Part shown: piece by piece, positions 1,940 to 43,055 of the stretch
Layout of the letters: every line of letters begins with the position of its first letter
How positions within the stretch are numbered: position 1 is the first letter of the stretch
Assembly (NCBI RefSeq): GCF_963576545.1
Contig: NC_083646.1
Location: forward strand, 20,470,663-20,534,662
DNA length: 64,000 nucleotides
Source of the DNA: Limanda limanda
Taxonomy: Eukaryota > Chordata > Actinopteri > Pleuronectiformes > Pleuronectidae
Reading direction: 5' to 3'
Notes under the pieces: model-generated
Databases searched by the model: none
What the model saw: only the letters and a program-made list of their open reading frames with translations
What the model was told of the DNA's origin: nothing
Translations under genes and position numbers: made by a program

Positions 1940-2351
1940 TGTTACGACCCTGACTAGGGGTAAAACAGTCGCAACATGATCCAAGAGTTCCCCCAGCCTT
2001 CCACTCTCCCAAGAAACCAGCCACAAACAATTATCAGCCGTTAGTGTTTATTAAAAACACCTTCTCCTTCAGGGTGGGCTAGTAGCCAAAACAATAAACA
2101 GAAAACTACCCTAAGGCGAAACAACCTAAACTTCCCTACTCAAAATAAAGGAAAACAAAAGACAGGTTACTGACCTAATTCCTCAAGTAAGCAAAACAGG
2201 AGAAAACATGGATCAAACAAAAAGGCTACCCACCCCTACCATGAACAGGCTGGTACAAAAAAAAGAACAGTTTGATAAAGTGCTGCACAAGCTGAGTGCA
2301 GCTGGACGTCCGGCTGGCAGTGGCAAGGAGAGAGACAGAGAGACATACACC

Positions 2352-2394
<43 letters not shown>

Positions 2395-2428
2395 GGAGAG
2401 GGAGCCACACAACCTCAGGGTTGTAACA
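1940..2428 (-). repeat. 3' LTR of the Gmr1-like element
   Basis: This 489-bp repeat matches 6,242-6,716 with few differences. The main one is the length of the (GA)n tract at 2,350-2,400, which is longer here. The high similarity suggests a young insertion. In element orientation this is the downstream LTR. Confidence 0.85.
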
Positions 2429-2440
2429 CCTCCCCCCTTA
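2429..2440 (-). other. Polypurine tract
   Basis: On the minus strand the bases immediately upstream of the downstream LTR read TAAGGGGGGAGG, a purine run in the position expected for the plus-strand primer of an LTR retrotransposon. This fixes the element's orientation as minus. Confidence 0.75.
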
Positions 2441-2468
2441 AGATCGAACATTTCTCTCCCAACGAAAA

Positions 2469-2840
2469 ATGTTCGATTTCACAGGTCAAAAGAACGCGAA
2501 AGGCGTGGCGTCTGCTTCTTACACAGAAGATCTGACTTGTTCCATTTGTCTGTCATTCTTCACTGATCCTGTAGTGCTCCTGTGTGGCCACTCTTTCTGC
2601 AGAGAATGTATTAATCATTCTCTGAGTTTACAGCGCCAGTGTCCACAGTGTCGAGCTGATATTCCAGAAAAGGAGAAATGTCTTCCAACCAATCACAGTT
2701 TGAAAAGTCTTGTTGAAAAAGAAGTCGACAAGCAGGAGAGAGGATGGAAATGTCAAAGAGGTTGATGACTGGTTGTGCCATGAACATGAAGAAAGGCTGA
2801 AGCTGTTCTGCGTCACTGATCAGAAGTTAGTTTGTTGAAT
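2469..2840 (+). pseudogene. TRIM-family RING plus partial B-box fragment
   Basis: The frame from 2,469 encodes a C3HC4 RING finger: CSICLSFFTDPVVLLCGHSF, then CRECI and CPQC, about residues 20-60. This arrangement is typical of fish TRIM ubiquitin ligases. After about 98 residues the frame stops. In another frame a B-box-2-like piece continues (CHEHEERLKLFCVTDQKLVC) and then stops near 2,838. There is no coiled coil and no SPRY domain. The fragment lies antisense inside the retrotransposon, between RNase H remnants and the polypurine tract. It looks like captured or inserted host sequence, now frameshifted. Confidence 0.75.
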
Positions 2841-3784
2841 TTCTTAGAGAAGAAACAGACCGGGTGATCCACATCATTAACATCCTCCTGCAGCAGCCCC
2901 GCCCCAGCCCCGTGACCACTGGCATCAACCTCAAGTTTGAAGGGTAGTAGAAAGTCTGGGGAAGAAAGAACAGGTGCGCTACAGAGAAGAGCCTTAGCAG
3001 ATTCAAGAGCTTCCTGACACGAAGTAGTCCACACATAAGGTTTAGAGGGACTGGACAGGGTAGTGAGGGGAGCAACAATATCAGAAAAGTTTCTGCAGAA
3101 TCCACGATAGTACCCACACATCCCTAAAAAACGTTGAAGTTCCCGCCTGGTCTTGGGCAGTGGGAAATCTACAATTGCCTGCAGGCCAGACCCACTAAAT
3201 GGTAACAAAACCAGAACCTTATCCCCAGACTGGAACTTTCTCGACACAGATTTCTGGTTGTCTCTGCTTTTCATCTTGGACTGAACAGAAGCTGTAGACA
3301 AACTATTAACTAAGGTACAGTCACTCTGTTGGGCCTTAATCAGTTCTACTTTGTCCACGGACAAAGACAAATCTGGAACCGTCCACATGTGGTCATACGT
3401 GTTTTCCAATGTTGTTTTTGTTGTTGGGGCCTCACCCAAAACAGAACTATCTACCACAACATTATCATGTACCATGAAAGTATCCGAAAGATGTACCACA
3501 TCACCTAGCTTACGAGCCGTGGCACGCGTAACGGCGCACGCAGGGAAAATGGAGGGTGAGTCACATGTAACCACAGTGGGGTTTTCAACAACTTCGGGGG
3601 AGGGGAACACTTTAACCGATGCAACATCATTCCCGAGAATTAAGTAAACCCCCTGTATTGGAAACTGGGATCGCAACCCAACTCGCACAAGGCCAGACAC
3701 AATAGGAGAGGATAGTTGCATAGTATGAAGCGGCACACGTAAAACACTCATTTTAACACCCCAAATCCGTATATCTGTGCCCAA
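2813..3784 (-). pseudogene. Gypsy pol fragment: linker, integrase tail, RT thumb/RNase H
   Basis: This 323-codon frame first carries a protease-linker region. A segment with KFQSGDKVLVLLP then appears, which is the usual C-terminal motif of fish Gypsy integrases. It is followed directly by the RT-RNase H junction (RRELQRFLGMCGYYRGFCRN, then LEVDASGHGAGAGLLQED and FFSKKF). The integrase core and most of RT, including its catalytic motif, are missing. Integrase before RT/RNase H is the order known for Gmr1-like elements, so internal deletion explains the frame better than scrambling. Confidence 0.75.
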
Positions 3785-4500
3785 TATGTTTGCTTCGAAA
3801 AAGGTAACACACCAGCCCGGATGAGAGAATGTTTCGCACCGGTATCTCGTAATATTTTAATGGGCACAGGGCTATCTCCATCCTCGGGTATAGACACATA
3901 ACAATCTGAGACGAACGGTTTAAAATCAGCATCCATTTCATCCTTCTGTCCTATCTGAGCTACTCCAGGCACTGTTTGAATCAGCCTGATAGCGGAGGGA
4001 CTGTCTGACCTCTTAATCTGATCTTTCTTTCTCAACCGCGGACAATCAGCAATAAAATGTCCACTTTCATGGCAGTAGAAACAAGCACGCTTATCACGGA
4101 AAACTGGTGACTGGAGCCTGGGACTCAGGGGTGATTTTTGTCTTTCCCCTACAACTTCCCCATCATGGGACATATATGAGGAAAACACATTCTTATGGGT
4201 TAGGGCAAATTCATCAGCCAGCACTGCTGCTTGTGATAAGGTCGCAACCTTTTGTTCATTTAAGTACATCACAATATTCTCAGGCAAACATCTCTTAAAC
4301 TCCTCCAGAAGTATAAGTTCACGCAAAGCAACAAAATCCTTGGTTTCAGAAGCCTGACACCATTTATTAAATAATGTGCCCTTCTCATGTGCAAATTCAC
4401 CATACGTTTGGTTGGCAGTTTTTCTAGAGTTCCTAAATTTTTGGCGATAAGCCTCAGGAACTAATTCATAGGCCCGAAGAACAGTAGATTTAACCACCTA
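3748..4500 (-). pseudogene. Gag C-terminal half and protease start, Gmr1-like
   Basis: The minus-strand frame encodes a SCAN-like capsid C-terminal segment (LRAYELVPEAYRQKF through a Leu-rich stretch), a CCHC zinc knuckle (CFYCHESGHFIADC) and an aspartic-protease-like start (DTGAKHSLI). A TAG at about 4,498-4,500 separates it in frame from upstream gag, and a MITE splits gag just beyond. The mammalian SCAN domain is thought to derive from Gmr1-like capsids (established knowledge). Confidence 0.8.
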
Positions 4501-4526
4501 ATAATCCCCGCTCTGGTCTAGAGTAA

Positions 4527-5520
4527 AGGCCAATTTATGCTTGAGCGTATTTTGTAAAACGGATAGATAAGACCGCCCTATCCGTCGTGAAACGCCCTCT
4601 CCGAGCGCTTCGGACAGCTTTTCGTACACCTCTGATTTTTCGAACTGTCCGTGTTGTGTCGGAGAGCCCGCGGACAGCTCTTGGCTGTGATTGGTCCGCG
4701 AACGACATCATTTCCGTATGTGGTCATTTCCGTACGACGTCATTTCTGTTCGAGGTCATTTCCGGAACTGTAACTTCCTGATTCACAAGAAACACATACA
4801 CAACTACGATTCTACGATTAATGTGACGTGTGTGTTAAGCCAGCGGAGTTGTCCGGCTGACGGTGGCTCGTTCGAGCACTGACGACATGTGTGCACGGTC
4901 ACAGACGGTTAGAACGAGCTTTCAAAACGGCGCTAGCAGGCTAGGCTAGCGGGCTAGCCACCATGCTAACTGCGGTGGTAACAGTGCATAACCCCGCCGT
5001 CACGACTTTAATTCCACTTCTATCATGACACTGTTTCCATAATACCGCCAGGTTAGAAGCAAACACTTGGTAGAAGTTAGTGTCGGGAGTCCCTGCTGAC
5101 TGTGTGGAAGCTGGGGGGAAGCTAGCTGGGAGGGGAGCTAGCTCCGTGTAGCTGCTAGCTCCGTCTAGCTTCAAGCTACAAGCTGTGGAATCAGCAACAC
5201 AGTTCGGAAACAAGACCGGGGAACCGCTGCGCTAAGAAACGATAACATCAGCATCTTGACCCGCTGGGTGACACTTTATTTGGTTCTGTTAGTTGCCATG
5301 GTTCAGTGTGTGGGAGACAGAGATAAACAGACACACGTGGACTTCTTCTTCCCAAAATTGGGGTAGGCCTCTCTGAGCTCGTCTTCCGTTGCGCCACCTA
5401 TGGGTTTGGCGGTGAATTTTATTCGACGTATAGTGGTCGGAGAAGTAAAAATCAAAAAGACTCTTCGTCTCCCACTGAGCCCTCTCCGAGAAACGGATAC
5501 GTAGAAGTATATAAGAGCCT
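4527..5520. mobile_element. TAA-flanked MITE (PIF/Harbinger-like), copy I
   Basis: This 994-bp non-coding element is flanked by TAA at 4,524-4,526 and 5,521-5,523. Its ends, AGGCCAATTTATGCTT and (reverse complement) AGGCTCTTATATACTTC, are imperfect inverted repeats. A second copy in opposite orientation lies at 33,162-38,025, also flanked by TAA. A TWA 3-bp duplication is the PIF/Harbinger signature (family knowledge). The interior is rich in GCTAGC. It splits the gag frame of the host retrotransposon, so it is younger. Confidence 0.75.
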
Positions 5521-5523
5521 TAA

Positions 5524-6121
5524 GACTATTACAGACCTCCTGCGCTTTGCCTACTAATTTGCATTGTAACAATATTGGCCAAACATTTTTAGGCCATCTT
5601 AATGCAGACGCAATACGTTCAAATGCACAAAAGTATGAATCAACTTCTGTTTCCCTAAACGGAGGAACAACTGCTACATGTCTGCCGACATCAAAGCTAT
5701 CCTGATGGAAGAGGGTAGGTGATGAAACCTGAATGTGGGTGGCAGACGCTAATGGGGGTTCCTGCTCCAACTCTAGAGCTCGCACTCGTAGGTGCATTGT
5801 GTCACGCTCCATCTCCTTAATACGGAGCACCAAGTTGAGTTCCTCGGCCTTCATGTCACTCTTAATCAAGGGATCCATGTCGGGGGCGGACCGTGGCATT
5901 GCCTTGGCCTCCGCATCTTCCCCAGTATCCACCTGACGTTCTGGAAACACCCCCTTTTCCCCTAATTCTTTAACCAAAATTTGTTTTAAATCAACTTTTT
6001 TTGCATTTAAAGGTACTTTAACCCCGAAAAAATCTGCCTCAATCAATAAATCAGCTTTGTTACATTTATCTAGCTTTTTAATCGAGGGATCCGTGACAAA
6101 ATCGTCTAATTGAAAATCCAT
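5524..6121 (-). pseudogene. Gag N-terminal half of the Gmr1-like element
   Basis: The frame starts at 6,121 (MDFQLDDFVTDPSIKKLDKC), about 100 bases after the primer-binding site. It runs for about 200 residues of retroelement gag: a Lys/Asp-rich leader, a coiled Glu/Leu region and a conserved capsid segment. It reads on into the MITE at 5,520, where the frame becomes MITE sequence and ends at 5,303. The downstream half of gag resumes below 4,523. Confidence 0.75.
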
Positions 6122-6218
6122 TCTTTTAACATAAACAACAAGCCGGCAACACGTTTGTGGAACATATATTATCTGCCAACAAACAACAACAAAAGAAAAA
6201 CAAATGTCCCCATAAGAA

Positions 6219-6236
6219 GAAACGGACGAGCTCCCA
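6219..6236 (-). other. tRNA primer-binding site, Pro-like
   Basis: On the minus strand, a few bases after the upstream LTR end, the sequence reads TTGGGAGCTCGTCCG. This resembles the complement of the tRNA-Pro 3' end used by many LTR elements, with about one change in the first fifteen bases. Position and orientation agree with the polypurine tract. Confidence 0.6.
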
Positions 6237-6241
6237 ATTCA

Positions 6242-6716
6242 TTTTACGACCCTGCCTAGGTGTAAAACAGTCGCAACATGATCCAAGACTTCCCCCCCCC
6301 CCTCCTTCCACTCTCCCAAGAAACCAGCCACAAACAATTATCAGCCCGTTAGTGTTTATTAAAAACACCTTCTCCTTCAGGGTGGGCTAGTAGCCAAAAC
6401 AATAAACAGAAAACTACCCTAAGGCGAAACAACCTAAACTTCCCTACTCAAAATAAAGGAAAACAAAAGACAGGTTACTGACCTAACTCCTCAAGTAAGC
6501 AAAACAGGAGAAAACATGGATCAAACAAAAAGGCTACCCACCCCTACCATGAACAGGCTGGTACAAAAAAAAGAACACTTTGATAAAGTGCTGCACAAGA
6601 TGAGTGCAGCTGGACGTCCGGCTGGCAGTGGCAAGGAGAGAGACAGAGAGACATACACCCCGAGAGAGAGAGAGGGAGAGAGGGAGAGGGAGCCACACAA
6701 CCTCAGGGTTGTAACA
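6242..6716 (-). repeat. 5' LTR of the Gmr1-like element
   Basis: This 475-bp copy matches 1,940-2,428. It differs by a shorter (GA)n tract, a longer C run near 6,293 and changed terminal bases. In element orientation it would carry the promoter. The target duplication lies immediately after it (6,717-6,720). Confidence 0.85.
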
Positions 6717-6862: not shown

Positions 6863-7000
6863 CTAGGGCTACGTTGTAGCACTTGCGGGCCCGAGCACCT
6901 GCACGTTGAAGCCTGTTGCGGTCGGGGGAGAGAGCGGTCGATGACCAAGCGCACGTGTCCGTGTTGGATGCGTTTTCCTCTCTGTGGCAAGGATAAAAGC

Positions 7001-7480
7001 TTCACTTCCTGTAGCCACCAGGGGGCGCTGTGATTTAAAGTCATGATTTCTGTGTATATGTCATCAGGCTGGGACTCTAGTCTTACATATCTAGTTTGGA
7101 CTCAATTGGACAATAAACGCTTCACTTCATGTAGCCACCAGGGGACGCTGTGATTTAAAGTCATGATTTCTGTGTAGATGTCATCAGGCTGGGACTCCAG
7201 TCTTACATGTCTAGTTTGGACTCAATTGGACAATAAACACTTCACTTCCTGTAGCCACCAGGGGGCGCTGTGATTTAAAGTCATGATTTCTGTGTAGATG
7301 TCATCAGGCCGGGACTCTAGTCTTACATGTCTAGTTTGGACTCAATTGGACAATAAACATTTCACTTCCTGTAGCCACCAGGGGGCGCTGTGATTTTAAG
7401 TCATGATTTCTGTGTAGATGTCATCAGGCCGGGACTCTAGTCTTACATGTCTAGTTTGCACTCGATTGGACAATATATGT
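7001..7480 (+). repeat. 120-bp tandem array, 4 units (nest copy 1)
   Basis: Units begin with TTCACTTCCTGTAGCCACCA at 7,001, 7,121, 7,241 and 7,361, a period of exactly 120 bp. Each holds an ETS-like ACTTCCTGT followed by the CTCF-like CCACCAGGGGGCGCTG. Unit 2 has one change in the motif (GGGGACGC). Confidence 0.95.
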
Positions 7481-9029
7481 CCGAGCTAAGAACCTCGTGT
7501 TTTGATGGCGTTTAATCAAACTTCAACGCCACGGTCACACGGCCTTAAAACCATATGAAGATCTCCGGGGGGGGGCTGTCGATACACACATGTAGTTTGA
7601 GTGAGATAGAACCATGAACACGGAAGTTACAGCATTTGGTGTTTCACGGCGAGTTGATGAACTTTGACGCCACGCCACGGTCACACGGTGTGACGAACGA
7701 TAAATCCCTAAATCAATTTTTATCTCCATCTTGTTGTGATGACACTCATCTGAATTTAAAGTTGAACTGATAAAAGCCCTGGGACAAGTACATCAAAGTA
7801 AAAATGGTGAATATGGCCAAAATGGCCACTAAATCCAAAATGGCGGACTTCCTGTTTGGTTTAACCTATCGATCCAAGAGACTTATTTGTTTGTAATGGA
7901 AAGACACATGCCCTAATACATTTTTGTACAAGTCGGCCAATCGTAGCGCCGGGGCTGCTCTTTAGGGGGCGCTAGTCAGTTTTTTTGCCACGCCCATTTC
8001 TTAAAACCATATGAATATCTTCGGGGGGGGATGTTAACACACACATGTAGTTTGAGTGAGATGGAACCATGAACATGGAAGTTACAGCAATTTCGTGTTT
8101 CACGGCGAGCTGATGAACTTTGATGCCACGCCATTAATACTGTGTTTGACGAAAAGTCACAGTAATCTTATATCTTCATTATCAATGTCTTGAGACCTAT
8201 TTGATAGAGTTTGACATGGTTGAGGTCAGTGGATGAGGAGAAATACATCCAAGTGTAAGACATGCAAAAAAAAAGACATTTCCTGTTTTCACCAGGGGGC
8301 GCTGTGATATTAAGTCATGATTTCAGTGCAGATGTCATTAGGCCGGGACTCTTGTCTTATGTGTATAGTTTGGATTTGATTGGATCATGTATGTGCGAGA
8401 TACAGAAGCTCGTGTTTTGATGGCGTTTAATCAAACTTTGACGCCACGCCACGGTCACACGGTGAGACGAAAAATCAATCCCTAAATCATTTTTTATCTC
8501 CATCTTGTTGTGATATCACTCATCTAAATTTAAATTTGATTTGATGAAAGCCCTGGGACAAGTACGTCAAAGCAAAAATGGCCAAAATGGTCAAAATGGC
8601 CACTAAATCCAAAATGGCGGGCTTCCTGTTGCGTTTTTCATATTGCCCCTTGAGACTTTTTTTCATGATTTGTCACGAAACACCTCTTGCCCAATTTTGG
8701 TGAAAATCGGTTATGTGGAAACTTAGGGGCTGGGTTCCAGGGGGCGCTGTTGAGCCATTTTGCCACGCCCATTTCAAAATACTCCAGAATACGTAAATTT
8801 TCACCACTTACTAATTTACTGCAAAGTTTCATAACTTTTTGAGCATGTTAAAGCCCTCAAAAAGCCCATCCTTTTGCCGGAAAAATAATAACTAGGGCTA
8901 CGTTGTAGCACTTGCGGGCCCGAGCACCTGCACGTTGAAGCCTGTTGCGGTCGGGGGAGAGAGCGGACGATGACCAAGTGCTCGTCTCCGCGTTGGATGA
9001 GTTTTCCTCTCTATGGCAAGGATAAAAGC

Positions 9030-9510
9030 TTCACTTCCTGTAGCCACCAGGGGGCGCTGTGATTTAAAGTCATGATTTCTGTGTAGATGTCATCAGGCTG
9101 GGACTCTAGTCTTACATGTCTAGTTTGGACTCAATTGGACAATAAACGCTTCACTTCCTGTAGCCACCAGGGGGCGCTGTTATTTAAAGTCATGATTTCT
9201 GTGTAGATGTCATCAGGCTGGGACTCTAGTCTTACATGTCTAGTTTGGACTCAATTGGACAATAAACGCTTCACTTCCTGTAGCCACCAGGGGGCGCTGT
9301 GATTTAAAGTCATGATTTCTGTGTAGATGTCATCAGGCTGGGACTCTAGTCTTACATGTCTAGTTTGGACTCAATTGGACAATAAACACTTCACTTCCTG
9401 TAGCCACCAGGGGGCGCTGTGATTTAAAGTCATGATTTCTGTGTAGATGTCATCAGGCCGGGACTCTAGTCTTACATGTCTAGTTTGGACTCGATTGGAC
9501 AATATATGTC
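9030..9510 (+). repeat. 120-bp tandem array, 4 units (nest copy 2)
   Basis: Units start at 9,030, 9,150, 9,270 and 9,390 with a 120-bp period. All four carry an unchanged CCACCAGGGGGCGCTG. The units are nearly identical to each other and to those of copy 1. Confidence 0.95.
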
Positions 9511-11102
9511 CGAGCTAAGAACCTCGTGTTTTGATGGCGTTTAATCAAACTTCGACGCCACGGTCACACGGCCTTAAAACCATATGAAGATCTTCGGGGG
9601 GGGGGGCTGTTGATACACACATGTAGTTTGAGTGAGATAGAAAAATGAACACGGAAGTTACAGCATTTGGTGTTTCACGGCGAGTTGATGAACTTTGACG
9701 CCACGCCACGGTCACGCGGTGTGACGAACGATAAATCCCTAAATCAATTTTTATCTCCATCTTGTTGTGATGACACTCATCTGAATTTAAAGTTGAACTG
9801 ATAAAAGCCCTGGGACAAGTACATCAAAGTAAAAATGGTGAATATGGCCAAAATGGCCACTAAATCCAAAATGGCGGACTTCCTGTTTGGTTTAACCTAT
9901 CGATCCAAGAGACTTATTTGTTTGTAATGGAAAGACACATGCCCTAATAAATTTTTGTACAAGTCGGCCAATCGTAGCGCCGGGGCTGCCCTTTAGGGGG
10001 CGCTAGTCAATTTTTTTACTACGCCCATTTCTTAAAACCATATGAATGTCTTCAAGGGGGGGATGTTAATACACACATGTAGTTTGAGGGAGATGGACCC
10101 ATGAACACGGAAGTTACAGCAATTTCGTGTTTCACGGCGAGCTGATGAACTTTGATGCCGCGCCATTACTATGGCGTTTGACGAAAAGTCACAGTATTCT
10201 TATATCTTCATTATCAATGTCTTGAGACCCATTTGATACAGTTTGACATGGTTGAGGTCAGTGGATGAGGAGGAACACATCCAAGTGTAAGACATGCAAA
10301 AAAAAAGACATTTCCTGTTTTCACCAGGGGGCGCTGTGATATTAAGTCATGATTTCAGTGCAGATGTCTTCAGGTCGTGACTCTTGTCTTATGTGTGTAG
10401 TTTGGAATCGATTGGAACAAATATGTCTGAGATACAGAACCTCGTGTTTTGATGGCGTTTAATCAAACTTTGACGCCACGCCACGGTCACACGGTGAGAC
10501 GAAAAATCAATCCCTAAATCATTTTTTATCTCCATCTTGTTGTGATATCACTCATCTAAATTTAAATTTGATTTGATGAAAGCCCTGGGACAAGTACGTC
10601 AAAGCAAAAATGGCCAAAATGGCCACTAAATCCAAAATGGCGGCCATCCTGTTGCGTTTTTTATAATGCACTGAGAGACTTTTTTGTGCATCTGGTCATG
10701 ATACACCACCTCCTTCATTTCCGGTAGGATCGGTGAAAGCCAACTGAGGGGGCTTTCCGTAGGTGGCGCTGTTGAGCCATTTTGCCACGCCCATTTCAAA
10801 TTAATCCAGAATACAATTACTTTTTTGGGCTTTTTACTTCCTGCAAACTTTGGTCGGAATTTGAGCATGTCTAGGCCCTTAAAAAGACCAAAAAGGGAAA
10901 TAATAAGAAAAATCCTTACAATTTCAATAGGGCCTCTCACCATTTGGTGCTCGGGCCCTAAAAACTAGGGCTACGTTGTAGCACTTGCGGGCCCGAGCAC
11001 CTGCACGTTGAAGCCTGTTGCAGTCGGGGGAGAGAGCGGTCGATCACCAAGCGCACGTCTCCACGTTGGATGCGTTTTCCTCTCTGTGGCAAGGATAAAA
11101 GC

Positions 11103-11935
11103 TTCACTTCCTGTAGCCACCAGGGGGCGCTGTGATTTTAAGTCATGATTTCTGTGTAGATGTCATCAGGTCGCGACTCTTGTCTTATGTTTGGACTCAA
11201 TTAGACAATAAACGCTTCACTTCCTGTAGCCACCAAGGGGCGCTGTGATTTTAAGTCATGATTTCTGTGTAGATGTCATCAGGTCGCGACTCTTGTCCTA
11301 TGTGTCGAGTTTGGACTCAATTGGACAATAAACGCTTCGCTTCCTGTAGCCACCAGGGGGCTCTGTGATTTAAAGTCATGATTTCTGTGTAGATGTCATC
11401 AGGCCGGGACTCTTGTCTTACATGTCTAGTTTGGACTCAATTGGACAATAAACGCTTCACTTCCTGTAGCCACCAGGGGGCGCTGTGATTTAAAGTCATG
11501 ATTTCTGTGTAGATGTCATCAGGCTGGGACTCTAGTCTTACATGTCTAGTTTGGACTCAATTGGACAATAAACGCTTCACTTCATGTAGCCACCAGGGGG
11601 CGCTGTGATTTAAAGTCATGATTTCTGTGTAGATGTCATCAGGCTGGGACTCTAGTCTTACATGTCTAGTTTGGACTCAATTGGACAATAAAGGCTTCAC
11701 TTCCTGTAGCCACCAGGGGGCGCTGTGATTTAAAGTCATGATTTCTGTGTAGATGTCATCAGGCTGGGACTCTAGTCTTACATGTCTAGTTTGGACTCAA
11801 TTGGACAATAAACGCTTCACTTCCTGTTGCCACCAGGGGGCGCTGTGATTTAAAGTCATGATTTCTGTGTAGATGTCATCAGGCCGGGACTCTAGTCTTA
11901 CATGTCTAGTTTGGACTCAATTGGACAATATATGT
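11103..11935 (+). repeat. 120-bp tandem array, 7 units (nest copy 3)
   Basis: Units start at 11,103, 11,216, 11,336, 11,456, 11,576, 11,696 and 11,816. The first unit is 113 bp because of a small deletion. Units 2 and 3 have single-base changes in the CTCF-like motif (CCAAGGGGCG and GGGGGCTCTG). The same deletion and the same two changes recur at 15,286-16,110, so the two arrays are copies of each other. Confidence 0.95.
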
Positions 11936-13496
11936 CCGAGTAAGGAACCTCGTGTTTTGATGGCGTTTAATCAAACTTCGACGCCACGGTCACACGGCCT
12001 TAAAACCATATGAAGATCTTCAGGGGGGGGGGCTGTTGATACACACATGTAGTTTGAGTGAGATAGAACCATGAACACTGAAGTTACAGCATTTCGTGTT
12101 TAACGGCGAGTTGATGAACTTTGACGCCACGCCACGGTCACACGGTGTGACGAAAAAACAATCCCTAAATCATTTTTTATCTCCATCTTGTTGTGATGAC
12201 ACTCATCTGAATTTAAAGATGAACTGATGAAAGCCCTGGGACAAGTATGTCAAAGTAAAAATGTGGAATATGGTCAAAATGGCCACTAAATCCAAAATGG
12301 CGGACTTCCTGTTTGGTCTAACATATCGATCCAAGAGACTTATTTGTTTGTTATGAAAAGACACATGCCATAATCAATTTTTGTACATGTCAACCAATCG
12401 TAGTGCCGGGGCTGCCCTTTAGGGGGCGCTAGTCAGTTTTTTTGCCACGCCCATTTCTTAAAACCATATGAATATCTTAAGGGGGGGGATGTTAACACAG
12501 ACGTGTAGTTTGAGTGAGATGGAACCATGAACACGGAAGTTACAGCAATTTCGTGTGTCATGGCGAGTTGATGAACTTTGATGCCACGCCATTAGTATGG
12601 CGTTTGACGAAAAGTCACAGTAATCTTATATCTTCATTATCAATGTCTTGAGACCCATTTGATACAGTTTGACATGGTTGAGGTCAGTGGATGAGGAGAA
12701 ATACATCCAAGTGTAAGACATGCAAAAAAACATACATTTCCTGATGCCACCAGGGGGCGCTGTGATATTAAGTCATGATTTCAGTGCAGATGTCATCAGG
12801 CCGGGTCTCTTGTCTTATGTGTCTAGTTTGGACTCGATTGGATCGTGTTTGTCCGAGATACAGAACCTCGTGTTTTGATGGCGTTTAATCAAACTTTGAT
12901 GCCACACCAAGGTCACACGGTGTGGCGAAAAGTTGATTTTTTAAGTCAACTTTTTTCTCCATCTTGTTGTGATGACACTCATCTGAATTTGAAGTTGATC
13001 TGATGAAAGCCCTGGGACAAGTACATTAAAGTAAAAATCGCCAAAATGGCCAAAATGGCCACTAAATCCAAAATGGCGGGCTTCCTGTTGCGTTTTTCAT
13101 AATGCCCTTTGTGACTTTTTTTCATGATTAGTCACGATACACCTCTTGCCCGATTTTGGTGAAAATCGGTTATGTGGAAACCTAGGGGCTGGGTTCCAGG
13201 GGGCGCTGTTGAGCCATTTTGCCACGCCCATTTCCAAATACACCAGAATACGTAAATTTTCACCACTCTCTAATTTTCTGCAAAGTTTGGTAAGAAGTTC
13301 AGCATGTTAAAGCCCTCAAAAAGCCAATTCACTTTAGTCACAATAATAATAATAATAACTAGGGCTACGTTGTAGCACTTGCGGGCCCGAGCACCTGCAC
13401 GTTGAAGTCTGTTGCGGTCGGGGGAGAGAGCGATCGATGACCAAGCGCACGTCTCCGCTTTGGATGCGTTTTCCTCTCTGCGGCAAGGATAAATGC

Positions 13497-13736
13497 TTCA
13501 CTTCCTGTAGACACCAGGGGGCGCTGTGATTTAAAGTCATGATTTCTGTGTAGATGTCATCAGGCCGGGACTCTAGTCTTACATGTATAGTTTGGACTCA
13601 ATTGGACAATAAAGGCGTCATTTCCTGTAGCCACCAGGGGGCGCTGTGATTTAAAGTCATGATTTCTGTGTAGATGTCATCAGGCTGGGACTCTAGTCTT
13701 ACATGTCTAGTTTGGACTTGATTGGACAATATATGT
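13497..13736 (+). repeat. 120-bp tandem array, 2 units (nest copy 4)
   Basis: Units start at 13,497 and 13,617. The first has ACACCAGGGGGCGCTG and the second the unchanged motif. Confidence 0.9.
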
Positions 13737-15285
13737 CAGAGATACAGAACCTCGTGTTTTGATGGCGTTTAATCAAACTTCGACGCCACGGTCACACGGC
13801 CTTACAACCATATGAATATCTTCGGGGGGGCTGTTGATACACACATGTAATTTGAGTGAGATAGAACCTTGAACACTGAAGTAACTGCATTTTGTGTTTC
13901 ACGGCGAGTTGATGAACTTTGACGCCACGCCACGGTCACACGGTTTGACGAAGGATAAATCCCTAAATCAGATTTTATCTCCATGTTGTTGTGATGACAC
14001 TCATCTGAATTTGAAGTTGAACTGATGAAAGCCCTGGGACAAGTACATCAAAGTAAAAATGGTGAATATGGTCAAAATGGCCACTAAATTCAAAATGGCG
14101 GACTTCCTGTTTGATCTAACATATCGATCCAAGAGACTTATTTGTTTGTAATGAAAAGACACATGTCCCCATAGATTTTTGTACATGTCGGCCAATCGTA
14201 GTGCCGGGGCTGCCCTTTAGGGGGCGCTAGTCCGTTTTTTTGCCACGCCCGTTTCTTAAAACCATATGAATATCTTCAGGGGGGGGATGTTAACACACAC
14301 ATGTAGTTTGAGTGAGATGGAACCATGAACACTGAAGTTACAGCAATTTCGTGTTTCACGGCGAGCTGATGAACTTTGATGCCACGCCATTAATACTGTG
14401 TTTGACGAAAAGTCACAGTAATCTTATATCTTCATTATCAATGTCTTGAGACCCATTTGGTACAGTTTGACATGGTTGAGGTCAGTGGATGAGGAGAAAT
14501 ACATCCAAGTGTAAGACATGCAAAAAAAAAGACATTTCCTGTTGCCACCAGGGAGCGCTGTGATATTAAGTCATGATTTCAGTGTAGATATCATCAGTCC
14601 GGGACCCTTGTCTTATGTGTGTAGTTTGGAATTGATTGGTCCAAATATGTCTGAGATACAGAACCTCGTGTTTTAATGGCGTTTAATCAAACTTTGACGC
14701 CAAGCCACGGTCACACGTTGTGACGAAAAGTTGATTTTTTAAGTCAACTTTTTTTTCCATCTTGTTGTGATGACACTCATCTGAATTTGAAGTTGATCTG
14801 ATGAAAGCCCTGGGACAAGTACATTAAAGTAAAAATCGCCAAAATGGCCAAAATGGCCACTAAATCCAAAATGGCGGGCTTCCTGTTGCGTTTTTCATAA
14901 TGCCCTTTGTGACTTTTTTTCATGATTAGTCACGATACACCTCTTGCCCGATTTTGGTGAAAATCGGTTATGTGGAAACCTAGGGGCTGGGTTCCAGGGG
15001 GCGCTGTTGAGCCATTTTGCCACGCCCATTTCCAAATACACCAGAATACGTAAATTTTCACCACTCTCTAATTATCTGCAAAGTTTGGTAAGAAGTTCAG
15101 CATGTTAAAGCCCTCAAAAAGCCAATTCACTTTAGTCACAATAATAACTAGGGCTACGTTGTAGCACTTGCGGGCCCGAGCACCTGCACGTTGAAGCCTG
15201 TTGCAGTCGGGGGAGAGAGCGGTCGATGACCAAGCGCACGTCTCCGCGTTGGATGCGTTTTCCTCTCTGTGGCAAGGATAAAAGC

Positions 15286-16110
15286 TTCACTTCCTGTAGC
15301 CACCAGGGGGCGCTGTGATTTTAAGTCATGATTTCTGTGTAGATGTCATCAGGTCGCGACTCTTGTCTTATGTTTGGACTCAATTAGACAATAAACGCTT
15401 CACTTCCTGTAGCCACCAAGGGGCGCTGTGATTTTAAGTCATGATTTCTGTGTAGATGTCATCAGGCCGGGACTCTTGTCTTACATGTCTAGTTTGGACT
15501 CAATTGGACAATAAACGCTTCGCTTCCTGTAGCCACCAGGGGGCTCTGTGATTTAAAGTCATGATTTCTGTGTAGATGTCATCAGGCCGGGACTCTTGTC
15601 TTACATGTCTAGTTTGGACTCAATTGGACAATAAACGCTTCACTTCCTGTAGCCACCAGGGGGCGCTGTGATTTAAAGTCATGATTTCTGTGTAGATGTC
15701 ATCAGGCTTGGACTCTAGTCTTACATGTCTAGTTTGGACTCAATTGGACAATAAACGCTTCACTTCGTGTAGCCACCAGGGGGCGCTGTGATTTAAAGTC
15801 ATGATTTCTGTGTAGAAGTCATCAGGCTGGAACTCTAGTCTTACATGTCTAGTTTGGACTCAATTGGACAATAAACGCTTCACTTCCTGTAGCCACCAGG
15901 GGGCGCTGTGATTTAAAGTCATGATTTCTGTGTAGATGTCATCAGGCTGGGACTGTAGTCTTACATGTCTAGTTTGGACTCAATTGGAAAATAAACGCTT
16001 CACTTCCTGTAGCCACCAGGGGGCGCTGTGATTTAAAGTCATGATTTCTGTGTAGATGTCATCAGGCTGGGAATCTTGTTTTATGTGTCTAGTTTGGATT
16101 TGACCAGACC
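15286..16110 (+). repeat. 120-bp tandem array, 7 units (nest copy 5)
   Basis: Units start at 15,286, 15,399, 15,519, 15,639, 15,759, 15,879 and 15,999. The layout and unit-specific variants match the array at 11,103-11,935. After the seventh unit the sequence switches to a more diverged version of the element body, similar to 18,650-19,300. Confidence 0.95.
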
Positions 16111-19100
16111 AAATATGTCTGAGATACAGAAACACGTGTGTTGATGGCGTTTCATCAAACTTTGACGCCACGCCATGGTCAGAGGCTCTGACGAAAAAAT
16201 AAAATTTTGATAACTTTGAATCTCCATCTTGTTGTGATTAGACTCATATAAATTTTAAGTTGATCTGAGGAAAGCTCTACGACAAGTATATCAAAGTAAA
16301 TATGCAGAATATGGCCAAAATGGCCACCAAATCCAAAATGGCCGGCTTCCTGTTTACTCTAGCATATCTATCCAAGAGACTTATTTCTTTGTCATGAAAA
16401 GACACATGTCCCCGTCGATTTTCGTAGCTGTAGGCCAATCGTAGTGCCGGGGCTACCCTTTAGGGGGCGCTAGTCAGTTATATTGCCACGCCCATTCCTT
16501 AAACCCGTCTGACAGCTTTCAGGGGGGGGCTGTTGACACACACATGTAGTTTGAGGGAGATTGAACCTTGAACACCGAAGTTATAGCAATTTCGTGTGTC
16601 ATGGCGAATTGATGAACTTTGATGCCACGCCATTAATATGGCGTTTGACGAAAAGTCACAGAAATCTTATATCTTCATTATCAATGTCTTGAGACCCATT
16701 TGACATAGTTTCACATGGTTGTGCAAAGGGGATGAGGAGAAATACTTCCAAGTGTGAGACGTACCAAAAACAAGACATTTCCTGCTGCCACCAGGGGGCG
16801 CTGTGATTTTAAGTCACTATTTCTGTGTTGTTGTCTTCGGGTTGTGACTCTTGTCTTATGTGTCTAGTTTGGACTTGATTGGACCAAATATGTCCAAGAT
16901 ACAGACGCCCGTGTTTTGATGGCGTTTCATCAAACTTTGACGCCACGCCACGGTCACAGGCTCTGACGAAAAGTTGATTTTTTTGATAACTTTAGTAGTC
17001 CATATTGTTGTGATGACACTCGTCTAAATTTTAAGGTGATCCGATGAAAGCTCTATGACAAGTATATCAAAGTAAAAACGTGAAATATGGCCAAAATGGC
17101 CACTAAATCCAAAATGGCGGACTTCCTGTTACGATTTTCATAATGCACTGAGAGGCTTTTTTGTGCGTCAGGTCATGATACACAACCTCCTATTTTTTCG
17201 TGAGGATCGGTGAAAGTTAACTGAGGGGGCTTTCCGTAGGTGGCGCTGTTGAGCCATTTTGCCACGCCTATTTCAAATTACTCCAGAATGCAATTACTTT
17301 TTTGGGCTTTGTACTTCCTGCAAAGTTTCAAAACTATTCAACTATGTCTAGGCCCTTAAAAAGGCAGAAAAGGGAAATAATAATAACTAGGGCTACGTTG
17401 TAGCACTAACGGGCCCGAGCACACGCGCGTTCCAAGTCTGTCACGGTCGGGGAAGACACAGCGTTCAATGACCAAGCTCTCATCTCCGTGTTGCATGCGT
17501 TTTTTGAACTGTGGCAAGGATAAACGCTTCACTTCCTGTAGCCAGCAGGTGGTGCTGTGATTTAAAGTCATGGTGTCTCTGCAGATGTCTTCAGGTCGCG
17601 ACTCTTGTCTTACATGTCTAGTTTGGACTTGATTGAACCAAATATGCCTGAGATACAGAAGCTCGTGTTTCGATGGCGTGTAATCAAACTCTGTCGCCAG
17701 GCCACGGTCACACACTGTAACGTACATGTTAAATATACTATTTTTACCCTCAATCATGTACTAAAGTTATCTATCAACATTAATTGTCAAACATATGTAA
17801 GTGTAGCTGAGTTTCCAACACATTAAAACTGTTTGAAGGAACTCCTATGACCTGTGAAAGACAATGTGGTCCTTGGTCAATTCATGGTCTTATACTGCCA
17901 TCTTGTGTCTAAACATTGCCAGTACAGCTTATTTGACTCAAATATGAGTCAATGTGTTTCCTTCAGACTTTGTTGAACGCCACGATCACACGGTGTGATA
18001 AAAAAATTATCTTTTGATAACTTTACATTTGCAGATTGTTGTGATGACACTCATCTAAATTTGAAGTTGATCCGATGAAAGCTCTACGACAAGTACATCA
18101 AAGTAAAAACGTGGAATATCGCCAAAATGGCGACTAAATCCAAAATGGCGGACTTCCTGTTGCTTTTTTCATAATGCTCCTTGAGGCTTTTTTGTATGAT
18201 TAGTCACGATACACCTTTTCCCCGATTTTGGTGAAGATCGGCCATGGGGAAACCTAGGGGCTGCGTTCCAGGTGGCGCTGTTGAGCCATTTTGCCACACC
18301 CATTTCCAAATACTCCAGAATATGTAATTTTCCACCACATTCTAATTTACTGAAAAGTTTAGCAACTTTTTGAGCATGGGAAAGCCCTCAAAAAGCCAAT
18401 TCATTTGGATGAATAATAATAATAATAACTAGGGCTACGTTGTAGCACTAACGGGCCCGAGCACACGCGCGTTCCAAGTCTGTTGCGGTCGGGGAAGAGA
18501 GAACGTTGGATGAGCAAGTGCTCGTCTCCGCGTTGCATGCGTTCGGCACTGCGGCAAGGATAAACGCTTCACTTCCTGTAGCCACCAGGGGGCACTGTGA
18601 TTTTAAGTCACGATTTCTGTGTAGATGTCTTCAGGTCGGGAATCTTGTCTTATGTGTCTAGTTTGGATTTGATCAGACCAAATATGTCTGAGATACAGAA
18701 ACTCGTGTGTTGATGGCGTTTCATCAAACTTTGACGCCACGCCATGGTCAGAGGCTCTGACGAAAAAATAAAATTTTGATAACTTTGAATCTCCATCTTG
18801 TTGTGATTACACTCATATAAATTTTAAGTTGATCTGAGGAAAGCTCTACGACAAGTATATCAAAGTAAATATGCAGAATATGGCCAAAATGGCCACCAAA
18901 TCCAAAATGGCCGGCTTCCTGTTTACTCTAGCATATCTATTCAAGAGACTTATTTCTTTGTCATGAAAAGACACATGTCCCCGTCGATTTTCATAGCTGT
19001 AGGCCAATCGTAGTGCCGGGGCTACCCTTTAGGGGGCGCTAGTCAGTTATATTGCCACGCCCATTCCTTAAACCCGTCTGTGAGCTTTCAGGGGGGAGCT

Positions 19101-19965
19101 GTTGACACACACATGTAGTTTGAGGGAGATTGAACCTTGAACACCGAAGTTATAGCAATTTCGTGTGTCATGGCGAGTTGGTGAACTTTGATGCCACGCC
19201 ATTAATATGGCGTTTGACGAAAAGTCACAGTAATCTAATATCTTAATTATCAATGTCTTGAGACCCATTCGCCACAGTTTGACATGGTTGCGCAAAGTGG
19301 ATGAGGAGAAATACTTCCAAGTGTAAGACATACAAAAAACAAGACATTTCCTGCTGCCACCAGGGGGCGCTGTGATTTTTAGTCACGATTTCTGTGTTGT
19401 TGTCTTCAGGTCGTGATTCTTGTGTTATGTGTCTAGTTTGGACTTGATTGGACCAAATGTGTCCGAGATACAGACGCCCGTGTTTTGATGGCGTTTCATC
19501 AAACTTTGACGCCACGCCACGGTCACAGGCGCTGACGAAAAGTTGATTTTTTTGATAACTTTAGTATTCCATATTGTTTTGATGAGACTCGTCTAAATTT
19601 TAAGTTGATCCGATGAAAGCTCTACGACAAGTACATCAAAGTAAAAACGTGGAATATCGCCAAAATGGCGACTAAATCCAAAATGGCGGACTTCCTGTTG
19701 CTTTTTTCATAACGCACTGAGAGACTTTTTTGTGCGTCTGGTCACGATACACAACTGGGTATTTTTTTTGTGAGGATCGGTGAATGCTAAATGAGGGGCT
19801 TATCCGTAGGTGGCGCTATTGAGCTATTTTGCCACGCCTATTTCCAAATCCTACAGAATATGGCCATTTTCACACATTTCTAATTTAATGCAAAGTTTAG
19901 AAACTTTTTGAGCATGGGAAAGCCCTCAAAAAGCCAATTTAAGTTGGCGGAGAATAATAATAATA

Positions 19966-20291
19966 ATCATTTCAATTTCAATAGGGCCTCCCACCGGAGG
20001 TGCTCGGGCCCTAATAAGAATAATCCTTACAATTTCAATAGGGCCTCTCACCATTCGGTGCTCGGGCCCTAATAATCATTACAATTTCAATAGGGCCTCT
20101 CACCATTCGGTGCTCGGGCCCTAATAATAATAATCATTACAATTTCAATAGGGCCTCTCACCATTCGGTGCTCGGGCCCTAATAATCCTTACAATTTCAA
20201 TAGGGCCTCTCACCATTCGGTGCTCGGGCCCTAATAAGAAAAATCCTTTCAATTTCAATAGGGCCTCTCACCATTCGGTGCTCGGGCCCTA
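19966..20291 (+). repeat. Stack of six right termini of the nested element
   Basis: The terminal segment (TTTCAATAGGGCCTC, a variable middle, then GGTGCTCGGGCCCTA) recurs six times at about 55-60 bp spacing, separated by AATAAT or AATAAGAA. These are the outer right ends left after successive insertions into AAT runs. The first has a variant centre (CACCGGAGG) and belongs to the innermost copy. Confidence 0.9.
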
Positions 20292-20657
20292 ATGATGGAT
20301 TAATTTGTCTAGTTGAAGCTCCTCTAACGTGGGGGTTTAATCTTTTTCTGTGGTATATGATAAATAAACGGATGCATTTAGTTTATTGCACAACACAACA
20401 TTTGAAAATGTGCTGTGGGCTGCGACATGCGTAGGCACAAGAGCAGATATGAGTAAGCTGCAGAACAATGACTCCCTCACTGTCAGTCATGAAGTGGGCA
20501 GGGCTGCAGGACAGAATGTGAGAAGACATAAGTGTGAATGAGGAAGCAAGAGAGAGTTTTCTTTTAGCCTTGGGAAGATGCTTAAAAAGGAGAGTCTCAC
20601 TCTGCCAGAGGTGAAAAACCAGCGACATCTCAGACAGCAAACACAGAGGATAGTGAT
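20292..20657 (+). promoter_or_regulatory. Upstream and 5' UTR region of gprc6a copy A
   Basis: From about 20,376 to the start codon the sequence is nearly identical to 40,175-40,457 upstream of copy B. The 80 bp nearer the nested array are specific to copy A. No TATA box is assigned. The nested transposon block ends about 366 bp from the ATG, so copy A has lost the more distal ancestral upstream sequence that copy B keeps. Confidence 0.55.
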
Positions 20658-23600
20658 ATGGCCTGGGCTGTTCCTATAATCTACTTCCATGTCACAGTTT
20701 TCCTTATTATTATGGATACAGGACATGCCACTGAAAATTATACCAGGAGGATGGAAGCTACAGCTGCAGGTGATATCGTCATCGCAGGACTCTTTCCCAT
20801 TCATGAGGATGTAGAAGAAAAAAAAACCTCTTTCACACTACAACCACCACAGCCATGTATCAGGTGAGATCATCCAGATTAATGAAATCAATTATCCAAA
20901 CGTTTGTTTCTCAAAGATGTTATCAGAGACTTGAAGTAGAAACAGGATATTTTCAAACGTGCAATAATAAATATGTGTAACAATCATGAACTCAAAGTGA
21001 TCCTCCAAATGTATTCAAAGTGTAAAAGTACTAAAGTTGTCAATGTGTATATTTAAATATTGATAATAATATTGATAGCACTTAAATGTGAATTATTATC
21101 AGAAACAGCAACACATTTACAATATACTGTACCAAACTTTGGGGTCAGGGTTAAATTAATATTTTTGTTAATTAACTATTTGCATAGTACTTGCGAGTTG
21201 TTGCTCTCATATAAATGTGGTGGAATAAAAAGTTATATTTCCCTCTAAAAAGTCGTGTAAAAAAAGAAAGAAGAACATGTATTATGAGATGGTAATACTC
21301 AGCTGAAGTAAGGCAACAAATTCATATTAGGAAACGTACAACGATTTTGTCACTGATACTTCAAGATGTGATTTTGTTCACAGAGTCGAGTCAACTTTTC
21401 CTTCTTATTGTGTGGATTAGACTCATTTGATGAAGAACACACCCTGCAGAGAATGGGCGTTGGATAATTCAATGTGTGTCTCATATGAAGAGATTTCAAG
21501 TAAAAGAAATAGATTTTTTAGTTTTAGAATAATTTTATTTGTCACACAGTTATTTGTACTCTGTCTTCTTGTCCCTCACAGTCTCGATTCTATCACATAC
21601 ATCCTGTATTTATTATTGGAATAACAAATGTATTGTTCTCACAGGTTTGACGAAAGAAGCCTGATTTTGGCTCTGGCTATGATCAATGCTATCGAGGTCA
21701 TGAATAAGTCGCCTCTGCTCAAGGCTGTGAACCTCACTCTGGGTTACCTAATCGTGGACTCTTGCGCTGATCCCAGCACATCTCTGAGAGTCACAGGAGA
21801 CTTCATGCAGCGGGACAACTGCTACACAGAGAGCAACACCTCTACCAGTGGACAGCCAGTCATGGCTGTTATAGGTGCCTCTTACTCTGAAGTATCCATT
21901 GCCATCGCCAGGCAACTGACCCTCCAGATGATTCCTCAAGTAAGCTGCTGACCATCTGTGGCAACACTGACACACATAGCTGTGACTGTTATAGAAAGCA
22001 GCAGAACAGGTTTTCAGTGGTAGCTGATGAACATCAGCAGCCGAACCTTTTATGATCAAAGTGAGGAGCCACAGATAAACCGGCATCCTCTGTTGACGGA
22101 GATCTTGAAACTTCTCTATAAACCAGACCATATAATTTCAATTCAGTCTCCACATGGACCTCCTCTTTCGTGGTCCCCATGTGTCCTCCGTAAGATGCAG
22201 CCCCTGAATTGAGAAACATATGCATCTTAACCTGTTTGCTGGGAAAGTTACAAGTGAAGCAGTTTTGTGCGTTACCAAACAAAACTATGACCAAACTAAA
22301 AAGTTTGAAACTTACACATAGGAACAGTCGCAAAGACTTTATTAGAGGTTGTTTACTCAGATCTACTCAAGATCTGAGTAGATACATATTACAATAGATA
22401 ACATATCATTTCTCTGACGCTTTTATCCAAAGTGACTTCCAATAAGTGCATGCATTTAAACCTGAGGTCACATCTTTAAAAATGATATCATCTGTTTTTT
22501 TCTCCAGATCAGTTATTCATCAACTGCTGTCATTCTGAGTGATAAGAGCCGCTTCCCTTCGTTTTTGAGGACTGTTCCTAATGATGAACATCAGACAGCT
22601 GCCATGGTCAGACTTCTCCACACCTACGGCTGGAACTGGGTGGGAGTAGTTACCACAGATGGAGATTATGGCCGATCAGCTCTGGAAAGCTTTGTGTCCC
22701 AGGCCTCTGAAAAGGGGATCTGTGTGGCTTTCAAATCGATTCTACCTCAATCTGTGACCAGTCATGATGCCTACTCTGAAATCCGGGCCGCTGCCACAAC
22801 CATCCTCAGCAATCCCAAGGTGCAGGTCATTGTGTCATTTGCCAAGTCGACTCACATGAGGTATCTTTTCCAGGAGCTGAAGCATAAGGCACTGAGAACA
22901 GGACAAAGCATAGAGTCAATGAGAAGAGTTTGGGTGGCCAGTGACAGCTGGTCCTCCAGCAACTCTGTGAAAGTAAACGCGACTCTGAGGGACATAGGAC
23001 ATGTTGTGGGCTTCACCTTCAAGAGTGGAGACAAGTCATCAATTGAGGACTACCTGAGCAGGCTGGAGGCAGCTGGCCATGAATTTACAAGGAATAACCC
23101 CTTCATGAAGGAGTTCTATTTGCAGCTAAATGCCAGTAAAGGTTTTGAAGACACTAAGCTTATTTCAGAAGCTGTGAAAAATCTCAGGAAACACACTCAT
23201 GCCGCCACTATCCTTAGTGTTGAGATGGCTGTCAGCGCCATTACTCAGACTGTGGCTTCTGTCTGCAGGAGCAGAGACTGCAAAACACCAGGCACGATGC
23301 AACCCTGGGAGGTAATTACACACATATGTGTGTGTGTGTGTGCTCTTGTTTTGCATTACAGGGTCCACGTGGGTTAATTTTAGTCGCAGAATGAGGGTTT
23401 AGATCTGTAGGCATGAAGGATTTGGGGTAAAATAAAATACCTATAACAGCTAAGGATTTATTTTTGGCTGCGGAGACAGATCCTTGCCTCACTAAAAACG
23501 ATATCTAGATAAACTAACCAGAATTCCAGGGTTGAGACTATTTACAACCTGTTCCTCCAATGAATTTTACTGAAGGCTGAATGCAAATGTATGCATTCAA

Positions 23601-43022: not shown

Positions 43023-43055
<33 letters not shown>

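Follow-up and report, generated by a model that had tools for sequence, protein, structure and literature searches.

Organization of the locus

A stretch of 64,000 nucleotides from Limanda limanda (contig NC_083646.1 of assembly GCF_963576545.1, positions 20,470,663 to 20,534,662 of the forward strand; hereafter the window) contains a pair of class C receptor genes, the left of which adjoins a nest of seven non-coding, HINE-like elements carrying a co-oriented series of near-optimal matches to the CTCF motif. A first-pass annotation of the same DNA had proposed a transposon array at 7001..19372 with CTCF-like motifs next to a gene; the arrays are real and the adjoining gene belongs to the receptor pair, but the whole structure extends from 6863 to 20292 and is composed as follows.

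6863..20292, minus strand (motifs read on the plus strand): nest of seven HINE-like non-coding elements, with seven left and seven opposite ends in one orientation
6863..8891, minus: element 1, outermost and interrupted; by the nesting order its other terminus is probably the last one, ending at 20292
8892..10961, minus: element 2, a complete copy with both termini present
10965..13358, minus: element 3, interrupted, delimited by end patterns
13359..15147, minus: element 4, interrupted, delimited by end patterns
15148..17386, minus: element 5, a chimera, delimited by alignment and end patterns
17387..18428, minus: element 6, of a diverged subfamily and with one head unit, delimited by end patterns
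18429..20014, minus: element 7, innermost and of a diverged subfamily, delimited by end patterns
20015..20292, minus: tail of five further termini (six in tandem with that of element 7), spaced by 52 or 58 bp

CTCF-like sites of the nest

The pattern CCACCAGGGGGCGCTG occurs 31 times between positions 7015 and 19372 when up to two mismatches are allowed, 21 of the copies being exact, ten having one mismatch and none having two. All 31 lie on the plus strand, and in 100 dinucleotide shuffles the mean count was 0.00 and the largest 0. All matrix scores given here rest on a hand-entered version of the vertebrate CTCF matrix JASPAR MA0139.1. It yields 42 matches at p<1e-5 in the window, 39 of them within 6860-20300 (38 on the plus strand and one on the minus strand) and three elsewhere. 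At p<1e-6 there are 32 matches on the plus strand and none on the minus strand within the nest, with none in the rest of the window, and at p<1e-7 the nest retains 27 and the remainder of the window has none. By comparison, column-permuted matrices (n=200) gave a mean of 1.9 matches with a maximum of 12, the window reversed without complementing gave none at p<1e-5, and first-order Markov simulations of the nest (n=100) gave a mean of 0.4 with a maximum of 4 at the same threshold. For the common 19-mer site, TAGCCACCAGGGGGCGCTG, the score is 26.65 (p 1.1e-10), the maximum being 28.72, and the commonest base of the matrix is present at 16 of 19 positions. The annotated picture of about thirty exact or one-change sites over 12 kb, all pointing the same way and nearly identical to the vertebrate CTCF consensus, is thus borne out, and the matrix scoring proposed there as a check returned strong sites confined to the nest and not scores below threshold. 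Since the sites are copies of one another and hence not independent, their number is less telling than the strength of the ancestral site.

The sites reside in a 120-bp repeat that is present in 4, 4, 7, 2, 7, 1 and 1 units in elements 1 to 7, respectively, that is, as two to seven head-to-tail units in five copies and as a single unit in two, and a second, non-tandem module adds one more site in six of the seven elements. It is near certain that the tandem repeat and the second module have multiplied the sites, which now number two to eight near-optimal ones per copy and one in copy 6. The earlier claim that the sites were multiplied by tandem repetition within a transposon, and then by several copies nested in one another, therefore stands, but not all sites lie in 120-bp tandem units: of the 32 aligned units 24 belong to arrays, two are single head units and six belong to the second module. 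The arrays and the remaining sites are listed below.

6993-7475, plus: element 1 array, four units of 120 bp, with sites at 7012, 7132, 7252 and 7372
8286..8304, plus: element 1 second-module CTCF-like site, matrix p 1.4e-7
9022-9504, plus: element 2 array, four units, with sites at 9041, 9161, 9281 and 9401; second-module site at 10318
11095-11930, plus: element 3 array, seven units, with sites from 11114 to 11827; second-module site at 12744
13489-13731, plus: element 4 array, two units, with sites at 13508 and 13628; second-module site at 14542
15278-16098, plus: element 5 array, seven units, with sites from 15297 to 16010; second-module site at 16785
17539, plus: site of the element 6 head unit, p 5.1e-8; no second-module site among the matrix matches
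18579, plus: site of the element 7 head unit, a single unit; second-module site at 19354

Compared over 85 nt, unit 1 of element 3 agrees with that of element 5 without a mismatch, unit 2 with two mismatches and unit 3 again without any, which indicates that the two elements have at least the beginning of the seven-unit array in common by descent. Element 5 itself is a chimera: its head and first units resemble element 3 (98% for the head), and its body is closer to element 7 (92%) than to element 3 (79%). The switch point, read by eye, lies at about 16070, inside the last array unit. Arrays have thus probably moved by exchange as well as by transposition. The more general claim that arrays travel intact was dropped, as units 4-7 of elements 3 and 5 are uninformative and the arrays of elements 1 and 2 show no unit-for-unit correspondence.

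The sole minus-strand CTCF match of the nest is at 17893-17911 (p 1.4e-6) in element 6. The stretch that holds it, at about 17714-17962, has no BLAST match in elements 2 and 7 and is possibly a foreign insert. A half-motif, GGGGGCGCT or GGTGGCGCT, also recurs on the same strand as the sites in further, differently flanked modules of the element. Its CpG is intact in all 13 pattern matches, but only six of these pass p<1e-5 when scored against the CTCF matrix.

7961, 9992, 12418, 14216, 16459, 19028; 8735, 13194, 14992, 18266; 10757, 17234, 19804 (first base), plus: half-motif pattern matches

Ends and nesting of the elements

The left 20-nt end, CTAGGGCTACGTTGTAGCAC, is present in seven identical copies at 6863, 8892, 10965, 13359, 15148, 17387 and 18429, and the opposite end, GGTGCTCGGGCCCTAA, in seven copies at 10946 and then in tandem at 19999, 20057, 20109, 20167, 20219 and 20277. 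With up to four mismatches for the former and three for the latter, the window holds no further copies apart from inverted GGTGCTCGGGCCCTAA copies in each element's own head. The ends follow one another as balanced brackets, 1( 2( )2 3( 4( 5( 6( 7( )7 )6 )5 )4 )3 )1, and the five further termini of the tail equal in number the other interrupted elements (1, 3, 4, 5 and 6), with which they would pair individually in this order. Six of the seven heads stand directly after TAA and five of the seven after a AATAATAA tract; among the inner copies, five of six directly follow TAA tracts, and the head of element 3 stands after AAA, itself preceded by the TAA with which element 2 ends. This arrangement is best explained by newer copies having landed in the TAA tract of older ones, about 50 bp inward from the older copy's end, and nested insertion is accordingly regarded as the probable origin of the nest.

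Classification of the element

HINE and DINE-1-like elements are non-autonomous Helentrons whose features are set out in PMC4067079 and PMC7492417, and the two termini of the nest element resemble theirs when the element is read 5′ to 3′ on the minus strand, which is probably its true direction.

20231..20292, minus: HINE-like 5′ terminus, with TTA, the subterminal inverted repeat (subTIR) GGGCCCGAGCACC, a nested inverted repeat and then a T-rich/TTATTA tract
8892..8928, minus: HINE-like 3′ terminus, with the subTIR GGTGCTCGGGCCC and then the palindrome GCTAC-AAC-GTAGC

In all seven termini GGGCCCGAGCACC lies 3 nt from the minus-strand 5′ end, in agreement with the subterminal repeats of HINEs (12-15 bp long and 2-4 nt from the end), and an inverted copy is found at the other end, exact in five of the elements and over 12 nt in two. 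The segment 20241-20292 folds with -18.6 kcal/mol into an inverted repeat nested with the 5′ subTIR and adjacent to an ATT/TAA tract, the combination of nested inverted repeat and microsatellite that is seen in DINE-1 and Cg_HINE; on the minus strand the ATT tract and the central tandem repeats follow the inverted repeat, and CCTAG and a T-rich flank follow the palindrome. The palindrome is identical in all seven copies and 5 nt from the end as drawn, the mite elements having one of 5-10 bp at about 8-35 bp from the end; it was identified by inspection of the letters, and the lowest-energy fold computed for a longer stretch (-9.5 kcal/mol) has other pairs. HINE-type elements prefer TT targets (PMC4067079, PMC7492417), in T-rich sequence and without duplication of the target site, and five of the six inner copies sit in TAA (TTA) tracts, with the paralogous counterpart of the outer insertion site also altered.

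Membership of the Helentron/Helitron2 group of non-autonomous rolling-circle elements is considered likely on these structural grounds, and assignment to the HINEs proper is favoured somewhat less firmly, because features of Helitron2 fit too. The latter has asymmetrical inverted repeats and palindromes at both ends (PMC4067079), and the nest element likewise has palindromes at both ends and inverted repeats placed 3 nt and 24 nt from them. Helitron2 was compared by description, no coding sequence was found in the nest, and a HINE and a Helitron2 derivative are inseparable in this comparison. Canonical Helitrons have a 5′ TC and a 3′ CTRR end, a palindrome about 11 bp from the 3′ end and insert between A and T; a canonical Helitron was rejected, there being no 5′ TC on either strand, and a terminal-inverted-repeat (DDE) transposon is unlikely given the asymmetric position of the inverted repeats.

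Among the known families, HINE-Mo of a mite and Cg_HINE of an oyster share with the nest element the subterminal inverted repeats, the lack of coding sequence and, as it appears, a palindrome at one end and a T-rich target (PMC4067079, PMC7492417). The subterminal inverted repeats of the mite HINEs are moreover palindromic, like the GGGCCC of the nest element (PMC4067079). Central tandem repeats are shared as well, and those described in HINEs are of unrelated sequence (PMC4067079, PMC7492417). Unlike in the HINEs described there, the central repeat of the nest element holds a near-optimal CTCF site, the copies sit in one another's TAA tract and the 3′ subTIR is nearer to the end than in mites. 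Two stop-to-stop open reading frames (ORFs) of at least 110 amino acids were found in the nest, and the one given to Pfam had no match; no Rfam family reached the gathering score in the window. The element ends and the repeat, searched as exact patterns in viral and bacterial or archaeal contigs, gave 0 matches, a set that contains no fish chromosomes and so does not address the spread of the family.

A model for the CTCF-like cluster

The explanation that accounts best for these data, and that as a whole stands at about an even chance of being correct, is a nest of HINE-like elements that have a near-optimal CTCF site in their central repeat and are bound by CTCF. The element would be moved by an enzyme encoded elsewhere; Helentron proteins have been found in many fish (PMC4067079). 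Beyond the multiplication of sites within each copy, the start of a seven-unit array would have been inherited by elements 3 and 5, the latter a recombinant, which the unit comparison bears out in part. On the best reading of the bracket order, the TAA tract close to the end of an older copy, on its inner side, would then have served as the target of a newer one. With TT available on a single strand of such a tract, the newcomers would all have taken the same orientation, giving the 32 co-oriented strong sites. Co-orientation can therefore arise from insertion into TAA tracts without selection, and as an expected by-product of target choice it is no sign of a selected boundary.

For the site itself, binding by CTCF in vitro may be predicted with high confidence from the matrix score, and intrinsic binding is very likely. 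In the model, CTCF would occupy at least some units where these are unmethylated and open, and the chances that this happens in some tissue of the fish appear evenly divided. A co-oriented tandem bank of CTCF sites gives directional contacts (PMC5899087). If bound, the cluster would by the orientation rule given for Dxz4 (PMC5899087) halt cohesin arriving from the right, the receptor-gene side, and act as a barrier on one side only, its contacts extending rightward in the direction of the receptor genes. That the nest amounts to a measurable boundary, a role which the annotation had considered next to that of a loop anchor, seems unlikely all the same.

Several observations weigh against the model as a whole. 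Parsimony, applied to a tree that includes all 32 units, gives 0.84 changes per column for the motif and 1.02 for the rest of the unit, a difference that is not significant: 56 of 102 windows of 19 columns are as conserved as the motif or better, and for the 16-bp core (0.69) the corresponding count is 29 of 105. Selection on the motif was accordingly rejected and no constraint is claimed. The sole CpG of the site falls at the C12 position, where methylation is associated with lower CTCF occupancy in vivo, an effect for which, according to the authors, there is at present no support from in vitro data (PMC9264634), so a silenced copy may be empty of CTCF. Between elements 5 and 7, CpG transitions reach 0.208 against 0.063 for GpC, about threefold, as would be expected if the elements had been methylated. 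Only one weak reverse-oriented match (39145, p 4.3e-6) lies to the right of the nest in the window as a convergent partner. Turning to the element, its family membership is read from structure alone, and the 3′ subTIR lies 24 nt from the end and not at the roughly 38-60 bp of the mite HINEs, although this distance, reported for mite families, may vary. The right end reads CTAA on the plus strand and fits the CTRR rule of Helitrons, with a stem-loop directly inside. As to the history of the nest, the diverged copies 6 and 7 are the innermost, an unexpected position had older subfamilies been the first to insert, and inheritance of arrays is clear for units 1-3 of elements 3 and 5 only, units 4-7 being non-discriminating and the four-unit arrays of elements 1 and 2 lacking a unit-for-unit match.

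The evidence for past methylation of the nest is mixed. CpG transitions were counted symmetrically, as the use of majority-CpG columns alone would hide decay. Among elements 1-4 they amount to 0.19, compared with 0.14 for both GpC and CpC and with 0.07 for GpG, a slight excess, and the observed/expected ratio of CpG is 0.74 in the nest and 0.46 in the rest of the window. The CpG of the motif is intact in 28 of the 32 units, and when units are compared in pairs it is identical in 77% of cases, the figure for the other CpG columns of the unit being 23%; the units are related by descent. Parsimony gives 3 changes for the motif CpG columns and 8, 1, 3, 4, 5 and 7 for the six other columns with CpG in at least two units, which does not set the motif CpG apart; protection of this CpG was rejected as a conclusion, the pattern being suggestive at most.

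Alternative explanations

The way in which the nest arose can be read differently, in that the six-terminus tail and the seven heads would derive mainly from unequal exchange or rolling-circle read-through and not from independent nested insertions. The tail termini are spaced by 58, 52, 58, 52 and 58 bp, and the tail repeats with a period of 110 bp at 94% matches, compared with 87% at 58 bp, which hints at duplication of pairs and leaves room for some duplication of termini that may have taken place. The recombinant nature of element 5 and the inner position of the diverged copies point the same way, and Helitrons can repeat in tandem with 3′-truncated inner copies (PMC7492417). Duplication of pairs, however, predicts two alternating types of terminus, and inspection of the tail sequences by eye reveals none. 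The heads that lack an adjoining terminus are moreover matched in number by the tandem termini, six and six with element 7 included, and the complete element 2 is explained by simple insertion; exchange or read-through as the main source appears rather improbable. A more pressing doubt is that the CTCF match is a coincidence within a satellite-like repeat of a HINE-type element, whose copies are methylated heterochromatin, unoccupied and devoid of any architectural role. We would put this at somewhat below even chances. It agrees with the lack of significant excess conservation of the motif, with the central repeats of unrelated sequence described in HINEs (PMC4067079, PMC7492417) and with the threefold excess of CpG over GpC transitions between elements 5 and 7, and the half-motif GGGGGCGCT/GGTGGCGCT, recurring in poor CTCF contexts, may serve the element otherwise. 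Yet 39 matches at p<1e-5 were seen where simulation gave 0.4 on average, and the common site has 16 of 19 commonest bases; the copies not being independent, this speaks to the strength of the ancestral site. Heavy and lasting methylation is likewise not evident in elements 1-4, with their slight excess of transitions, nor in the CpG ratio of the nest compared with that of its surroundings.

Were the sites bound, the binding could serve the element and not the host, for example by keeping germline copies open or unmethylated and thereby mobile, with tandem amplification selected at the level of the element. The largely intact motif CpG and its high pairwise identity would suit such a role, as would the human SVA, which carries CTCF/BORIS sites in a tandem region reported to be required for transposition (PMC5007689). 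The pairwise counts, however, are not independent among units related by descent, the parsimony counts show the motif CpG to be unexceptional, and copies 6 and 7 are present despite their single units; a service to the element is on balance improbable. Less credible still is a functional boundary maintained for the regulation of the receptor pair. In its favour, about 2.2 kb separate the end of the nest (20292) from the first ORF found with a receptor domain, which starts at 22466, the sites are co-oriented toward the genes, and clustered CTCF sites are known to set boundary strength (PMC10703910). Maintenance is nonetheless hard to reconcile with the lack of significant conservation of the motif and with a second receptor copy that has no nest, and co-orientation has a simpler cause in target choice.

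Relation to known systems

Where transposons are known to have spread CTCF sites, these mostly occur singly and often in retroelements; a DNA transposon with two to eight near-optimal sites per copy would rewire genome folding far more strongly. The nearest mobile counterpart is the hominid SVA, which also has an internal tandem array of CTCF-type sites and whose variable number tandem repeat binds CTCF in vitro and, in cells, BORIS (PMC5007689). It differs in being a retrotransposon with weak matches (p about 1e-5 by that paper's own method), whereas the nest element is DNA-transposon-like and its sites reach p about 1e-10. Like the DXZ4/Dxz4 macrosatellite, which consists of tandem repeats with many co-oriented CTCF motifs (PMC5899087), the nest has 38 of its 39 matches at p<1e-5 on the plus strand. 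Dxz4, in contrast, is a single locus with demonstrated binding and contacts, while the nest is a mobile element known from its sequence alone, with a 120-bp spacing and several nested copies. If bound by CTCF, it would behave as a smaller counterpart of the mouse Dxz4 CTCF bank, one built by transposons.

Fish transposons are known to contribute CTCF-bound sites, as with the zebrafish SINE3-1a and HATN9_DR, which are enriched for CTCF footprints and provide a teleost precedent (PMC9341505); they belong to other transposon families, and the relevant passages of that paper do not describe tandem multiplication. Mammalian SINE B2 and other CTCF-bound elements similarly spread CTCF sites by transposition, an internal tandem array not being mentioned in the corresponding passages of PMC7786948, and the passages on CTCF in the same source describe no Helitron with CTCF sites. 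At the Firre locus, CTCF is recruited by local repeats in which a canonical motif is lacking (PMC4820808). Among the literature matches listed, none shows CTCF sites in a Helentron or HINE. Transposon-spread CTCF sites and tandem CTCF arrays are therefore already known, and it is the vehicle that, among those matches, appears to be new.

A far-reaching extension would be that HINE-type elements broadcast oriented CTCF arrays genome-wide, amplification setting the number of sites and self-insertion into TAA tracts forcing their co-orientation, and that one of the receptor duplicates has been newly insulated. We regard this as a long shot. If it were true, boundaries could be built copy by copy through target choice alone. 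If targeting of TAA tracts fixes the strand of insertion, selection would not be needed to account for CTCF clusters with a common orientation, a point relevant to the interpretation of such clusters at other loci.

Receptor genes, left flank and other repeats in the window

The receptor genes and the left flank of the nest comprise the following features.

20378..27914, plus: class C receptor gene copy adjoining the nest, with ANF_receptor and 7tm_3 domains
40173..46789, plus: second copy of the receptor region, with a 7tm_3 exon and without a nest or long terminal repeat (LTR) element upstream
1940..6716, minus: LTR retrotransposon of the left flank, with LTRs 93% alike over a 493-column alignment and a 4-bp duplication, TTGT

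The closest solved structures to the receptor are calcium-sensing receptors. Its two copies are tandem duplicates with pieces 89-96% alike and differ in their upstream load of mobile elements; the duplicated region as a whole comprises 1107-1940 plus 20378-27914 on one side and 39365-40125 plus 40173-46789 on the other, with pieces 79 to 96% alike. The LTR element, whose ends and TTGT duplication were read from the alignment, contains minus-strand pieces of SCAN (gag-like) and RNase H domains. Near 40120 the second copy has an empty site with a single TTGT, and the LTR element most likely inserted after the duplication of the region, given this empty site. The second copy also has no nest; since it is altered around the nest site, insertion after the duplication and loss from the second copy are indistinguishable. 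The two receptor copies allow flanks that carry and that lack the CTCF-like nest to be compared within a single genome.

Further repeats are present in the window. A large inverted repeat (31421-33109 and 34809-36277, pieces 89-97% alike) surrounds a four-copy 155-bp tandem repeat at 33990-34614, and the two ORFs inside it that were given to Pfam, 31553-32122 and 35591-36475, have no match. Another inverted pair at 27989-28709 and 29034-30067, with pieces 87-96% alike, holds AT-rich tandem arrays of the ATTTAAATCTAAATGTTAA type. Near the left edge, a 37-bp tandem repeat with a short palindrome in its unit occupies 241-517 in 7.5 copies with 92% matches.

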